Origin: a virus
Direction: 5' to 3' (one strand)
IMG/VR virus record: IMGVR_UViG_3300028844_002816
Span: 1-22,466 of that record
DNA length: 22,466 bases
The notes under the pieces: model-generated
Told to the model about the DNA's origin: nothing
The model's input: only the letters and a program-made list of their open reading frames with translations
The model's database searches: none
Position numbers and translations under genes: made by a program
Shown here: in pieces, positions 9,177 to 21,827 of the stretch
Layout: each line of letters starts with the position of its first letter
Numbering within the stretch: position 1 is the stretch's first letter

Positions 9177-9554
9177 ATGGAGAATAGTTTACTAGTACAC
9201 AAACATTTAATTGTTAGAGCAGAAGCTTCTCGTCCACCAATGGATGAAGAGCAACTAACGGAATGGATGAAAGAATTTGTAGAATCTATAAATATGAAAA
9301 TATTTATGGGTCCTTATGTAAAGTATTGTTCAATGCCAGGTAACAGAGGTATTACTGCAGTTGCAATTATTGAAACATCACACATCGCTATGCATATTTG
9401 GGATGAACCTAATCCTGCATTAATGCAGTTTGATGTTTATAGTTGTGGCGAGTTTGATGTAGAAAAGATTTGTGAAAAGATTAAAAAAGATTTTGATATT
9501 AAGAAAATAGAATATAAGTTCTTGAACCGCGAAACGGGATTACAAGATATTTAA
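9177..9554 (+). CDS. speD: SpeD-like pyruvoyl-dependent decarboxylase (S-adenosylmethionine decarboxylase family)
   Basis: A 125-residue protein matching the short bacterial/archaeal AdoMet decarboxylase fold. This family self-cleaves at an internal Ser to make a pyruvoyl cofactor, then decarboxylates S-adenosylmethionine for spermidine synthesis. The signature here is ETSHIAMHIWDE at residues 66-77, equivalent to the usual ESHISIHTWPE. Ser68 is the predicted pyruvoyl precursor, His73 the processing His, and Cys90 in DVYSCG the proton donor. The residue before Ser68 is Thr67, not the usual Glu, and there are two extra residues between the Ser and the Cys. Because family members with other substrates (arginine or ornithine) are known, the substrate is uncertain. 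It follows the lysis gene by nine bases and ends tail to tail with a minus-strand gene, stops overlapping by three bases. It is an auxiliary metabolic gene. Confidence 0.82.
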   Translation: MENSLLVHKHLIVRAEASRPPMDEEQLTEWMKEFVESINMKIFMGPYVKYCSMPGNRGITAVAIIETSHIAMHIWDEPNPALMQFDVYSCGEFDVEKICEKIKKDFDIKKIEYKFLNRETGLQDI

Positions 9555-9757
9555 CGACAGATACATCCAACAAAATTACCACTACCATCATTCATAATAT
9601 GTAAATTTAAACTATCAACATACCCAGATAATTTTTCTCTTAATATATTACAAAGATTTAAACAATCTACTTCTGCAGTTATAACTATACCTTCCATAAT
9701 TTCTTTTGTAACAGGTATTAGTTGATACAATCCATCATTTAAAATTATTAAATCCAA
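9551..9757 (-). CDS. Small hypothetical protein, downstream partner of the helicase
   Basis: A 68-residue protein read on the minus strand. Its ATG at 9757-9755 lies inside the end of the helicase gene, with a ten-base overlap, as expected for a coupled second gene. It contains four cysteines (VDCLNLCN in the middle and GCICR at the very end) and hydrophobic stretches, but no clear signal peptide or metal-site spacing. I do not recognise the family. Its TAA overlaps that of the + strand speD-like gene, so two transcription units converge with no space between them. The overlap and open frame make it likely real, but the evidence is only positional. Confidence 0.6.
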   Translation of the reverse strand: MDLIILNDGLYQLIPVTKEIMEGIVITAEVDCLNLCNILREKLSGYVDSLNLHIMNDGSGNFVGCICR

Positions 9758-11181
9758 TCTCTTAACTCCTCTCCCATAATTTCACTAGCAATATTTATTT
9801 TTTTACGCAAAGCTTTTTTAATTTTTTCATCAACAGTTTTTGGTGCTACGATATCAACATATGTTACAGATTTTTTCTGACCAATTCTATGTGCTCTATC
9901 TTCTGATTGTAATCTTTTCTCAAGATCATAACCATTAGAATAATAAATAACATTACTTGCAGCAGTCAAAGTTATACCATAACCACCCGTTTGTGGATTA
10001 CCAACAAAAAATTTAACAGGAGAATCGGGATCTTGAAACTTCTCAATAGCTTCTTGTCTTTTTTCTGACGAAATAGCACCATAATATTGTACTACAGAAT
10101 TTTCTCCGTGTTTTTTTTTAACTTCTTTTACAATATGTTCTATGTCATAGATATAGTTAGCCCAAATAATAGCCTTACCTTCCATTTCATCAATAACATT
10201 TAACAGCTCATCTAATCTATTATTTTTAATCTCGGTTATTGTACCATCATCATTCTTTAAATGACCACAAGTGATCTGATGCAAACGCATCATTTGTGTA
10301 AGCACGTGGGGTGCTGTTGCCATCTTACCTTTTAAAGAAGCGAGAGCCGCGGATTTCATAGTAGAATAAGCCTTACCTTGTTCTTCAGTAAGTTCTACTT
10401 GTCGTTCAATATATATTTTTTCTGGTAAATCTAGACAATGTTCTTTTAAAACTCTGTAAGAAAAAGCTTTTAAAATTTCTGCTAATTCATCTAATCTCTT
10501 ATAACCACCTACAATTTGTACTCTACGGCCACCAAAATTTCTATCTAACATATTGGCGTATCTGTTTCTAAAAGTATAATAAGAAGTAAAACCTAGTAAG
10601 TGTTCATTTAAAAAAACACATTGAGTATATAAATCTAACGGTGATTTAGTTACAGGAGAACCTGTAAGTATTCTTCTGTAGTTAGCAAGTTTACCAATAG
10701 ACAAAATAGATTTAGTTCTTTTAGCAGTAGGTGTTTTAATACTTGTTGATTCATCAATAGCCATTAAAGTTCTATGTGTTCTTAAAAATTTACCTGCAAA
10801 ATCTAAACCTTTTTTAGTACTGAATGCTTCTACATTCATAATTAAAATATGAAGATCATATCCTGTTTCAAATAACGAATCATATTCTTTTTGTTTTGTT
10901 TTAGAAGTTAAAGCTGTCCATAATACCATCTTGGGTTGTATGTGACTAGCCAAATGTGTTGGAATTTCTTGAGACATCCAATTTCTATAAACACCTTTTG
11001 GTGCTATAATTAATGCCCCATTTATTTTACCTTTATCATAAAGCATAGCTATATTATCTACTAACACTTTAGATTTACCTGTACCCATTTCCATAAAATA
11101 ACCATATTCAGTTTTATCCCACGATTTTTCTAACGCAGTTAATTGATGTGCATATGGTTTAGTTTTAAATTTATAATCCAT
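9748..11181 (-). CDS. SNF2-family (superfamily 2) DNA helicase / translocase
   Basis: A 477-residue protein when started at the ATG at 11181-11179. A longer reading from TTG at 11208 would begin inside the promoter -10 box, so it is unlikely. Helicase signatures appear in order: a Q-like YAHQ near residues 10-13, motif I GTGKS at 33-37, motif Ia IIAPKGVYRNW, motif II DEST at 143-146, motif III LTGSP at 172-176, and motif VI RAHRIGQ at 429-435. This set is typical of SNF2-like ATPases, which pump along double-stranded DNA. In phages these may remodel replication forks or displace bound proteins. It is the first gene of a two-gene minus-strand unit surrounded by + strand genes, with its own promoter. 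The role in phage replication is inferred from the adjoining primase and polymerase genes. Confidence 0.9.
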   Translation of the reverse strand: MDYKFKTKPYAHQLTALEKSWDKTEYGYFMEMGTGKSKVLVDNIAMLYDKGKINGALIIAPKGVYRNWMSQEIPTHLASHIQPKMVLWTALTSKTKQKEYDSLFETGYDLHILIMNVEAFSTKKGLDFAGKFLRTHRTLMAIDESTSIKTPTAKRTKSILSIGKLANYRRILTGSPVTKSPLDLYTQCVFLNEHLLGFTSYYTFRNRYANMLDRNFGGRRVQIVGGYKRLDELAEILKAFSYRVLKEHCLDLPEKIYIERQVELTEEQGKAYSTMKSAALASLKGKMATAPHVLTQMMRLHQITCGHLKNDDGTITEIKNNRLDELLNVIDEMEGKAIIWANYIYDIEHIVKEVKKKHGENSVVQYYGAISSEKRQEAIEKFQDPDSPVKFFVGNPQTGGYGITLTAASNVIYYSNGYDLEKRLQSEDRAHRIGQKKSVTYVDIVAPKTVDEKIKKALRKKINIASEIMGEELRDWI

Positions 11182-11201: not shown

Positions 11202-11229
11202 TTGACAATTATATAAACCCTATGTTAAT
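11202..11229 (+). promoter_or_regulatory. Forward promoter for the replication block, overlapping the reverse promoter
   Basis: A perfect TTGACA at 11202-11207 is followed after 16 bases by GTTAAT at 11224-11229, which matches four of six bases of the -10 consensus. A start near 11236 would leave about 35 bases before the ATG at 11271. The two -35 boxes are an inverted pair, each lying at the other's start site, so the two promoters could not be occupied at once. The forward -10 is weak, so this promoter may need an activator. Confidence 0.4.
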
Positions 11230-11238
11230 GTCTGTCAA
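11208..11238 (-). promoter_or_regulatory. Sigma-70-like promoter for the minus-strand helicase unit
   Basis: Read on the minus strand, a perfect TTGACA occupies 11238-11233. TATAAT lies at 11213-11208 with a 19-base spacer. TATATA, two bases earlier at 11215-11210, gives the ideal 17-base spacer. Transcription would start near 11202, about 20 bases before the ATG at 11181. This supports that ATG over the TTG at 11208, which is part of the -10 box. Confidence 0.6.
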
Positions 11239-11270
11239 TAGAATAATAGAATTAAATAGAAAGTTAAAAA

Positions 11271-11678
11271 ATGAAAAATAAAATATTTGAATTATATAAA
11301 CCAAAATCTTTGGCAGAGTTTTTACAATTCTATAAAGACCATCCTGAAGAAAAATTTGTTTATGTATTACAACATCCACCAGCTAATATAAATATATTAG
11401 GTGCATCTGATTTTGGATATCTAGTTATTTGTTTGCCTAACTATGGTCCAGATTCTCAAATAATATTTTCTTCAAGTCCTTTTGTTTTTAAAATGCAAAA
11501 AAATTTAAGAGACTTTAGAGAACAAGATTATGTATTGCTAACAGGAGATCCAGCTATTATAGGTATTTCTTGTGCAATCGTTTGTGATAAAACAAACGGT
11601 AAATTTAATCTCTTGAAATGGGATCGACGAGAGAGTAAATACTATCCAATAAATTTCGATCTCTATCAGAAAGGATAA
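11271..11678 (+). CDS. Hypothetical protein, first gene of the replication block
   Basis: A 135-residue soluble-looking protein with a mix of beta-type hydrophobic segments (FVYVLQHPP, YLVICLPNYG, IIGISCAIVCD) and no membrane span long enough to be certain. I do not recognise the family. It starts about 35 bases downstream of the predicted forward promoter start and ends two bases before the next gene. The position at the head of the early-looking operon, before the coiled-coil and ssDNA-binding genes, suggests an early function, but this is inference. The coding pattern (AGA, AAA, TTA use) matches its neighbours, so the gene itself is well supported. Confidence 0.78.
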   Translation: MKNKIFELYKPKSLAEFLQFYKDHPEEKFVYVLQHPPANINILGASDFGYLVICLPNYGPDSQIIFSSSPFVFKMQKNLRDFREQDYVLLTGDPAIIGISCAIVCDKTNGKFNLLKWDRRESKYYPINFDLYQKG

Positions 11679-11680
11679 AT

Positions 11681-12247
11681 ATGAGTAATGAAGTAAATGA
11701 AATGATGATAAAAGATTCTAAAGATCTTTTAGATTCAGTTGAGGTAACTACTATAGCTGCAGAGTGTCAGAAGTTAAAACAAAAAGAAGACGAGATTGCA
11801 GATCTAGAAGAAAAGTTAAAATCTAAAAAACAAGAGGCAGATGATATTAGTTCTAGAGTTATACCAGAACTATTGGCAGAACAAAACTTAACTGAAATAA
11901 AGTTAGGTGATGGATCTGCAGTAACAGTTAAAAAAGAATTTAGGTGTACTCTTCCAAAAGATGAAGTGAAGAGAGAAGCAGCCTATCAATGGCTTCGTGA
12001 CAATAAGTTAGAGGATATTATTAAAAACAATGTCTTTGTAACTTTTGGTCGTGGGGAAGATGACAAGGCAGAGCAATTGCTCAACCTTGCGGCAGAAAAT
12101 GGCTTTCAACCACAACAGAAATCTGATGTGGCTTGGGCTACTTTAACTGCCCTGTTTAAGGAGCGTGTCGAGGCCGGTCTCGACATGCCTTCTGAAGTCT
12201 TTAATACATGGATTAAAGATAAAACTAAAATAAGCCGGAAAAAATAA
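11681..12247 (+). CDS. Coiled-coil protein of unknown function in the replication block
   Basis: A 188-residue protein. Residues about 25-60 form a clear heptad-like coiled coil rich in Lys, Glu and Leu (QKEDEIADLEEKLKSKKQEA). A compact domain follows, with GDGSAVTVKKEFRCTLP near residues 85-100, AYQWLRDNKLEDI near 108-120 and FVTFGRGED near 127-135. It ends in a basic tail KISRKK. I do not recognise a named family. It sits immediately before the presumed ssDNA-binding gene and is separated from it by 12 bases that hold the GGAGGA ribosome site. A DNA-metabolism role is inferred from place only. The last third has a higher GC content than the first, including two short palindromes at 12071-12082 and 12166-12185. 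Confidence 0.78.
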   Translation: MSNEVNEMMIKDSKDLLDSVEVTTIAAECQKLKQKEDEIADLEEKLKSKKQEADDISSRVIPELLAEQNLTEIKLGDGSAVTVKKEFRCTLPKDEVKREAAYQWLRDNKLEDIIKNNVFVTFGRGEDDKAEQLLNLAAENGFQPQQKSDVAWATLTALFKERVEAGLDMPSEVFNTWIKDKTKISRKK

Positions 12248-12259
12248 TGGAGGAAAATA

Positions 12260-13033
12260 ATGGCTAATGAAGTAATGGCTAAAAAAGACACTGGGTCAGT
12301 TGCCTTGTTTGGTAATGATGCAGCTACAGGATTTGAGAACATGACGCAAGAAGATATGGCGTTACCGTTTGTAAGAATCCTAGGACAATTATCACCACAG
12401 GTAACTGATGGTGATGCAAAGTATATAGAAGGTGCCAAACCTGGTATGATCTATAATACTGTTACCAGCGAACTGTTCGATGGTAAGAAAGGTATCAAGA
12501 TAATTCCTTGTTACTACAAAAAAGATTATCCAGAATGGTCGGATAGAGGGGATGGACCAGGTGCTCCGGTTGCTATCCACTTGCCGAACAGTCCGATAAT
12601 CGCAACAGGTAAGAGAGATGGATCTAAAATTAGATTACCTAATGGTAACTATTTAGAAGAGACAGCTTCTTACTATGTAATGATTGAGACAAAAACAGGG
12701 GGTTATACTCCTGCTTTGATTACTATGAAATCAACTCAATTAAACGTCAGTAAAAAATGGAATTCTATGATGAAAACCATACAAATATCTGACGGAAAAG
12801 GTGGATTTATAATCCCACCAATGCATGGGGTTGTGTATAATTTATCATCTACACTACAAAAGAACGATAAAGGTTCTTGGTATGGATGGGTTGTTACACA
12901 AGACAGAATTTTAGGACAGGAAGATAAGTCTTTGTATTTAAGTGCAAAAGACTTTTCTGGCAATGTCTCTAAAGGAAACGTGCAAACAAAAGCAGATGTG
13001 GAAGAGGTTGCTAAAGATAGTACTCCGTACTAA
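12260..13033 (+). CDS. Probable single-stranded DNA-binding protein
   Basis: A 257-residue protein with a strong ribosome site GGAGGA at 12249-12254. The first 35 residues are followed by a beta-rich core with many aromatic and basic residues (GIKIIPCYYKKDYPEW, ASYYVMIETKTGG, WYGWVVTQDR). A mildly acidic tail (VEEVAKDSTPY) completes it. Phage ssDNA-binding proteins often combine an OB-like barrel with an acidic tail that contacts polymerase and primase. The tail here is only weakly acidic. I recall similar proteins next to primase genes in marine phages being annotated this way, but no diagnostic motif proves it. It is the last gene before a hairpin terminator and lies just upstream of the primase. 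A strong, highly expressed early gene with its own terminator fits a stoichiometric DNA-binding protein. Confidence 0.6.
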   Translation: MANEVMAKKDTGSVALFGNDAATGFENMTQEDMALPFVRILGQLSPQVTDGDAKYIEGAKPGMIYNTVTSELFDGKKGIKIIPCYYKKDYPEWSDRGDGPGAPVAIHLPNSPIIATGKRDGSKIRLPNGNYLEETASYYVMIETKTGGYTPALITMKSTQLNVSKKWNSMMKTIQISDGKGGFIIPPMHGVVYNLSSTLQKNDKGSWYGWVVTQDRILGQEDKSLYLSAKDFSGNVSKGNVQTKADVEEVAKDSTPY

Positions 13034-20533: not shown

Positions 20534-20748
20534 TTTTAGAAACTGTAGTAGCACTTCTTATGTTAGTAAACAATGAGATCAAAGAACATAGAATACAAGT
20601 AGAAGGTATGGCTCAATGTTTACGTGGTAAACGTAAAGCGGAAAGACAATATCAAGAAAATGTACAGTATCAATGTATAAAATCTAAAGCAGAACTTGAG
20701 AAAAATATTGATGGATCTTTATCAATTAAAAAACTAATATTAGAATAA
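20530..20748 (+). CDS. Small exported-type protein with two cysteines
   Basis: A 72-residue protein. The first 14 residues (MILETVVALLMLVN) are hydrophobic and look like a weak signal or anchor. The rest is hydrophilic with MAQCLRGKRKAER and QYQCIKSKAELEKNIDG carrying one Cys each, so a disulphide is possible if it is exported. I recall closely similar proteins in marine phages, always unassigned. It overlaps the gene before it by four bases and the gene after it by one. Confidence 0.72.
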   Translation: MILETVVALLMLVNNEIKEHRIQVEGMAQCLRGKRKAERQYQENVQYQCIKSKAELEKNIDGSLSIKKLILE

Positions 20749-20882
20749 TGAAAAATTGTAGTAAATGTAAAAAAGAGTTTGAAGCTAAAGACGAATTAGA
20801 TATGTTTTGTAGCCAAGACTGTAAGGAAGAAGCTCTAGCTGATCTTGACAATGACAGCGATGAGTGTTTAAGTTGTCAATAA
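20748..20882 (+). CDS. Small zinc-ribbon-like protein with six cysteines
   Basis: A 44-residue protein. Cys4 and Cys7 (CSKC), Cys21 and Cys25 (CSQDC), and Cys40 and Cys43 (CLSC) make three cysteine pairs; the first two could form a zinc knuckle. The middle is acidic. The ATG shares a base with the upstream TAA, and its own TAA shares a base with the next ATG. A regulator of host transcription or translation is a guess by analogy with other small phage zinc proteins. Confidence 0.62.
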   Translation: MKNCSKCKKEFEAKDELDMFCSQDCKEEALADLDNDSDECLSCQ

Positions 20883-21581: not shown

Positions 21582-21609
21582 TTGACAAGGACTTATTTGT
21601 TGGTATAGA
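21582..21609 (+). promoter_or_regulatory. Sigma-70-like promoter before the ribbon-helix-helix gene
   Basis: A perfect TTGACA at 21582-21587 is followed by a 16-base spacer and TATAGA at 21604-21609. A start near 21616 leaves about 30 bases before the ATG at 21648, which has the ribosome site AAAGGA. The intergenic space from 21474 to 21581 holds the inverted repeat TAGAA-TTG-TTCTA at 21471-21483 and an imperfect hairpin at 21511-21530, but no clear terminator. Confidence 0.6.
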
Positions 21610-21647: not shown

Positions 21648-21827
21648 ATGGCAGATCCGTTAAAATTTAAATCTGTGTCGGTACCAATCGACACTTATCG
21701 TAAACTAGAGTTTTTGGCGAATGGAAAGTTTTTAGATGCAAAGTTAACAATTAGTAAAACAATTGAAGCCTTGGCTACAAGAGCTGCAAAAAAAACAGGA
21801 TACAAAAATGGAAAAACAAACACATAA
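21648..21827 (+). CDS. Ribbon-helix-helix-type small DNA-binding protein
   Basis: A 59-residue protein. The start KFKSVSVPIDTYRKLEFLA looks like the Arc/CopG layout: a short beta strand (residues 7-13), then helix one, then a second helix beginning LTISKTIEALATRAAKK. The family binds DNA as dimers through paired beta strands and often represses its own operon. It is the first gene behind the promoter at 21582-21609, so autoregulation is plausible. Its end overlaps the next gene by 20 bases. A toxin-antitoxin partner is not evident. Confidence 0.65.
   Translation: MADPLKFKSVSVPIDTYRKLEFLANGKFLDAKLTISKTIEALATRAAKKTGYKNGKTNT

Follow-up and report, generated by a model that had tools for sequence, protein, structure and literature searches.

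A conserved pair of interlocked promoter-like boxes, probably a compact bidirectional promoter, between the helicase gene and the replication block of a pelagiphage

How are two gene units that leave one short spacer in opposite directions expressed? The question is raised by a 22,466-nucleotide fragment of a relative of HTVC023P-type pelagiphages (the window, meaning the whole stretch of DNA that was analyzed), in which a 37-base unit at 11202-11238 separates a helicase gene on the minus strand from a replication block on the plus strand. Pelagiphages of this type infect SAR11, an ocean bacterium. The nearest annotated record is phage 023Pt_psg01 (psg01), which matches 54% of a 3.4 kb query at 81.5% identity. 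The features concerned are the following.

9748-11181, minus strand: SNF2-like helicase gene (Pfam SNF2-rel_dom, 1.2e-20, and Helicase_C, 2.9e-13; PHROG 62 DNA helicase, 8.5e-117)
11202-11207, plus strand: putative -35 box TTGACA of the rightward promoter, containing the predicted leftward start (~11203); TTGAC invariant in 47 distinct units
11210-11215, minus strand: putative leftward -10 box, TATATA, at a spacing of 17 bases; 48/48 distinct units have a TATA core at 16 or 17
11224-11229, plus strand: putative degenerate -10 box GTTAAT of the rightward promoter, 16 bases from its -35; TATA core in 35/48 distinct units, the window not among them
11233-11238, minus strand: putative -35 box TTGACA of the leftward promoter, containing the predicted rightward start (~11236); GTCAA invariant in 47 distinct units
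11271-13033, plus strand: first three genes of the replication block, similar to Pam3 gp32, gp33, and gp34 (PF23992, PF23984, and PF23977)

The helicase gene starts with an ATG at 11181-11179 (minus strand), preceded by a ribosome-binding-like AGAAAG at 11199-11194 (minus strand), and the same AGAAAG occurs ahead of the replication block at 11258-11263. The gp34-like gene is directly followed by a primase gene and then by helicase and DNA polymerase genes, all three named from the same order in annotated relatives. Convergent with the SNF2-like helicase gene lies an auxiliary metabolic gene for S-adenosylmethionine decarboxylase (9177-9554, PF02675, 2.3e-18). No Rfam element matched the window at the gathering score. 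A replication origin was considered and rejected, as the GC skew is negative only around the minus-strand helicase gene, where it turns because of gene direction.

As an earlier note on this DNA had reported, the two TTGACA boxes lie on opposite strands (11202-11207, plus; 11238-11233, minus) with 25 bases between them. Single TTGACA hexamers are no more frequent in the window than expected (14 against 15.2), whereas inverted TTGACA pairs with a gap of 10-30 bases are (2 found, 0.05 expected). The second such pair, at 20845-20879, was set aside as a chance occurrence, as it sits in a small reading frame (20748-20882, frame read by eye). A generic promoter scan of the window called neither promoter and was uninformative.

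Other promoter-like stretches were seen as well. In the window, TTGACA-N16-TATAGA (21582-21609, plus strand) stands 39 bases upstream of a reading frame of 59 aa (21648-21827), and the aligned psg01 sequence lacks the TTGACA; the encoded protein, tried as a candidate regulator, was dropped, having no Pfam or PHROG match. In psg01, TTGACA-N17-TATATA (minus strand, L005:10190-10437) precedes ~200 rather G+C-rich bases without an annotated gene, which are possibly a small RNA (no Rfam match; folding z-score only -1.7).

For the leftward promoter, the earlier note had described a full TATAAT. This hexamer is indeed present, at 11213-11208 (minus strand), but 19 bases from the -35, a poor spacing outside the usual -35/-10 range. 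Since TATAAT is also absent in many relatives, we prefer the TATATA at 17 bases. The rightward -10 is weaker, as had been claimed; its candidates are GTTAAT, spaced 16 bases from the -35, and TGTTAATGT (11223-11231), spaced 18 bases, which has the extended TGn form. Judged by its boxes, the leftward promoter should be the stronger one in the window. With 7 bases assumed from -10 to start, the predicted starts fall at ~11203 (leftward) and ~11236 (rightward), so that each -35 would overlap the start of the opposite promoter, which agrees with the geometry first proposed.

We then compared this spacer among relatives, as the earlier note had recommended. The set consisted of the best 80 of 281 viral contigs with a relative of the helicase, which match at 78-97% identity in their best segment. 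In 78/80 contigs, TTGAC...GTCAA lay no more than 60 bases from the helicase start, with 24-26 bases between its arms; one exception ends inside the unit, and in the other the unit lies 211 bases away, behind a small inserted frame in the helicase direction. Absence of the pair from relatives, named in the earlier note as a refuting outcome, did not hold for these contigs. No further copies of the pair were found elsewhere in these loci (589,610 bases). Adding the window and psg01 gave 80 units, 47 of them distinct, in which all ten TTGAC/GTCAA bases were invariant, compared with 0/57 fourfold-degenerate helicase columns in 47 sequences. As the class patterns themselves demand TTGAC and GTCAA (or looser forms), the real measure is the number of loci that fit, and the invariance is to be read alongside it. 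The compared sequences are related and hence non-independent samples, and frequencies here and below apply to the retained rows only (best 80 of 281, of 355, and of at least 600). As far as such comparisons can tell, the box pair is strongly conserved and is not a product of chance.

In a pattern scan of viral contigs returning at least 120 rows, 118 adjoined these helicase, gp32-like, or gp33-like genes: both genes lead away from the unit in 103, the helicase gene only in 7, and a gp32- or gp33-like gene only in 8. The earlier reading of two opposed promoters on shared DNA, one leading to the helicase and the other to the replication block, is supported. One of the two remaining rows has the same interlocked TTGACA pair in another phage contig (L107:854-891), between two small divergent reading frames, and the layout may therefore have arisen more than once.

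The positions of the -10 boxes follow a rule. We required a TATA core 16 or 17 bases from each -35 in 48 distinct units, one contig from a sister set (L279, see below) being included. The core was present on the reverse side in 48/48 and on the forward side in 35/48, so that the combination used as a criterion for alphaproteobacterial sigma70 promoters (TTGAC with TATA at 16-17) is found on both sides in most units, the window having it on the reverse side. When the inner bases were shuffled, TATA cores on both sides occurred in 0.13/48 units on average and in 2 at most, against the 35 observed. In these 35 units, an arm gap of 24 goes with spacings of 16/16, a gap of 25 with 16/17 or 17/16, and a gap of 26 with 17/17, and the two -10s stand 8 bases apart in 35/35, across all three gaps. 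The remaining 13 units, which include the window and psg01, lack the forward TATA core with the forward TTGAC unchanged, suggesting that the rightward promoter may there be weak, helped by a factor, or unused. The invariant left TTGAC in these units could possibly reflect an extended -10, an activator, or a second role.

Several observations bear on the polymerase that would read such boxes. Upstream regions of the SAR11 16S rRNA genes carry TTGATT-N16-TATAAG in 70/88 loci (the motif is missing in 18/88), and a -10 without the final T is common to these regions and the phage units. TTGACA itself occurred 10 times in the SAR11 intergenic DNA, never with a TATA at 16-18 bases, a sample too small to decide that leans against a host-promoter reading. 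Phage HTVC027P encodes no RNA polymerase and is described as depending on that of its host (PMC12753301).

The clade of HTVC027P provides a second version of the same spacer. From the best 80 of 355 contigs near this phage, two were dropped for having no DNA upstream of the helicase start. In 75 of the 78 left, TTTACT...AGTCAA surrounds a shared central TATATA that would be usable both ways; the arms are 39 bases apart in 35/36 distinct units, and a distance of 19 bp is predicted between the starts. Each of the six TATATA columns agrees in 31/35 distinct 51-base units. The other three contigs comprise L279, which has the layout of the window, and two with other DNA at this position. A CTTTC/GAAAG inverted repeat common to both arms, inside the promoter spacers, was seen in this clade (L207-L286); it may correspond to the ribosome-binding sites of both genes or to a factor site, and in some contigs it lies more than 20 bases from the start codon. 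In HTVC027P itself, an additional promoter-like stretch (TTGACA-N16-TATATA, plus strand, L002:388-415) lies between gp01 and gp02 in the replication block.

A helicase tree, built by a quick method from 121 rows (one for each distinct unit, with part of the HTVC023P set), placed all rows with the window's layout except L279 in one clade (SH-aLRT 97) and L279 as sister to the shared-TATATA clade (SH-aLRT 99). Four more contigs (L093, L124, L130, and L183), whose gp32-like proteins share 72-79% identity with the one from L279, also have the window's layout. From the placement of L279 and these four contigs, the interlocked form is probably older than the shared-TATATA form. Among the best 80 of at least 600 contigs of the HTVC023P set, two of which were dropped, the spacers showed neither layout in a clear form; a forward TTTGCA-N16-TATATT with a reverse TTGA core, noticed by eye, was too weak to claim.

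In more distant phages, the two genes are arranged differently. The gp32-like gene (PF23992) follows the helicase gene in the same direction in four of them: Pam3, Rhizobium phage RHph_I65, and Bordetella phage CN1, where the two genes overlap by four bases, and Luteibacter phage Pluto. In DSL-LC04, the two genes are divergent, as in pelagiphages, and no clear box pair was visible by eye in the spacer. The annotation of MW202510 shows no gp32-like neighbor of the helicase gene. Judging from these six records only, the helicase gene would have been turned round, and a two-way promoter would have kept both units under the same input.

Taken together, we consider it likely that the host sigma70 polymerase uses the spacer as a compact bidirectional promoter, which would feed both units and serve their coupled expression. 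Two promoters of the form TTGACA-N16/17-TATAWN would stand head to head, 8 bp separating their -10s, a distance that puts each -35 on the start of the other promoter and the predicted starts 33 bp apart. Polymerase would bind in one orientation or the other and accordingly make mRNA of the helicase gene or of the replication block. One site would thus supply both units, whose genes form one co-directional row in the outgroup phages.

The earlier note had gone further, suggesting that the two units may exclude each other or be timed in infection. In such a timed switch, use of one overlapping promoter would shut out the other, with a regulator of phage or host origin tipping the choice in one direction at one stage of infection. 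This we regard as unlikely. Its starting point is sound, as the geometry would hardly let polymerase sit on both promoters at once, a view also taken for other overlapping promoters in the available parts of PMC4207663 and PMC12825309. The unequal promoter strength read from the sequence of the window fits it too, and the unequal overlapping divergent promoters of plasmid pLS20, which have a regulator, work in this manner (PMC4207663). Against it, no regulator was recognized by Pfam or PHROG among the seven proteins scanned in the window, itself part of a genome. Nor is the inequality kept: the window and 12 further distinct units have a forward -10 that is the weaker by sequence, while both cores are present in the other 35 of 48. 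In the five E. coli cases examined in PMC12825309, the promoters fired too seldom at the basal level to compete. Finally, the two genes are co-directional neighbors in four of the six outgroup records, which favors coupled expression over a timed switch.

The earlier note had also offered the inverted TTGACA pair as a possible operator. On this reading, the pair would bind a dimeric regulator, and there would be a single leftward promoter. The invariance of the left TTGAC in the 13 units with a degenerate forward -10 would fit such a site, as would the half-site centers, ~31 bp or three helical turns apart in most units. The -10s, however, keep their 8-base distance at arm gaps of 24-26, each one-base change of the gap being matched in the -35/-10 spacing, and this is not what a rigid dimer site would lead one to expect. 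The sister-clade arms, at 39 bases and with a different left box, and the lack of a second copy in 590 kb of relatives also argue against it, making an operator quite improbable. That the pair is functionless, its boxes drawn at random from AT-rich DNA, is barely credible, for all the lack of TTGACA enrichment and the second pair inside a reading frame, given the 78/80 contigs, the 0/57 fourfold columns, and the constant inner distance.

A bidirectional promoter in these phages would be of some general interest, bidirectional promoters having come under study only recently and mainly in bacterial genomes. One gene pair keeping a two-way promoter through two layouts would be a natural experiment within a phage group, and what could be under selection is polymerase competition, the balance of strengths, or mere compactness. 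More tentatively, we propose that selection in an abundant marine phage group has maintained an interlocked pair of promoters with near-perfect -35s and a constant 33 bp between starts, that a shared -10 version took its place at the same gene pair in the sister clade, two-way firing rather than any one sequence being under selection, and that this arrangement replaced a co-directional operon after the helicase gene turned; we hold this fuller account as possible rather than probable. The question of what is selected can in part be tested now, as HTVC027P can be propagated on a SAR11 strain in culture, and RNA-seq data of its infection are public (BioProject PRJNA1253180).

In the open-licence literature, we found no paper on a pelagiphage bidirectional promoter; among the matches listed, none on pelagiphage or SAR11 promoters and transcription starts concerned this unit by title, and none on overlapping or bidirectional phage promoters described anything similar. 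The word "promoter" is absent from the main text of PMC9599517 (80 environmental genomes) and PMC12753301. The interlocked layout may therefore be new relative to the papers searched, bidirectional promoters as such being already known.

Compared with the S. meliloti sigma70 consensus, CTTGAC-N17-CTATAT in the available part of PMC2873474, the pelagiphage unit has the same TTGAC -35, a TATAT -10 without the final T, and a nearly equal spacing; the unit corresponds to two such copies interlocked head to head. The Pc/Pr promoters of pLS20, as presented in the accessible part of PMC4207663, are likewise overlapping and divergent, with one usable at a time. They differ in having a regulator and a DNA loop, neither of which was found at the pelagiphage unit, and in driving an operon and its own regulator, whereas the pelagiphage pair would drive two replication units.

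The bidirectional promoters of Warman and Grainger are defined, in the available portions of PMC12825309 and PMC10268837, by divergent starts 7-25 bp apart, the commonest class being 18 bp. In them, one short stretch takes polymerase in two orientations and yields divergent mRNAs, as the pelagiphage unit would. The window's layout lies outside that definition, with predicted starts 33 bp apart, and has two -10s 8 bp apart in place of a shared near-symmetrical one; both of its -35s are near-perfect, whereas the Salmonella study, in the part available, calls the -35 poorly conserved. The HTVC027P-clade version, with its shared TATATA and a predicted distance of 19 bp, comes close to the commonest class.
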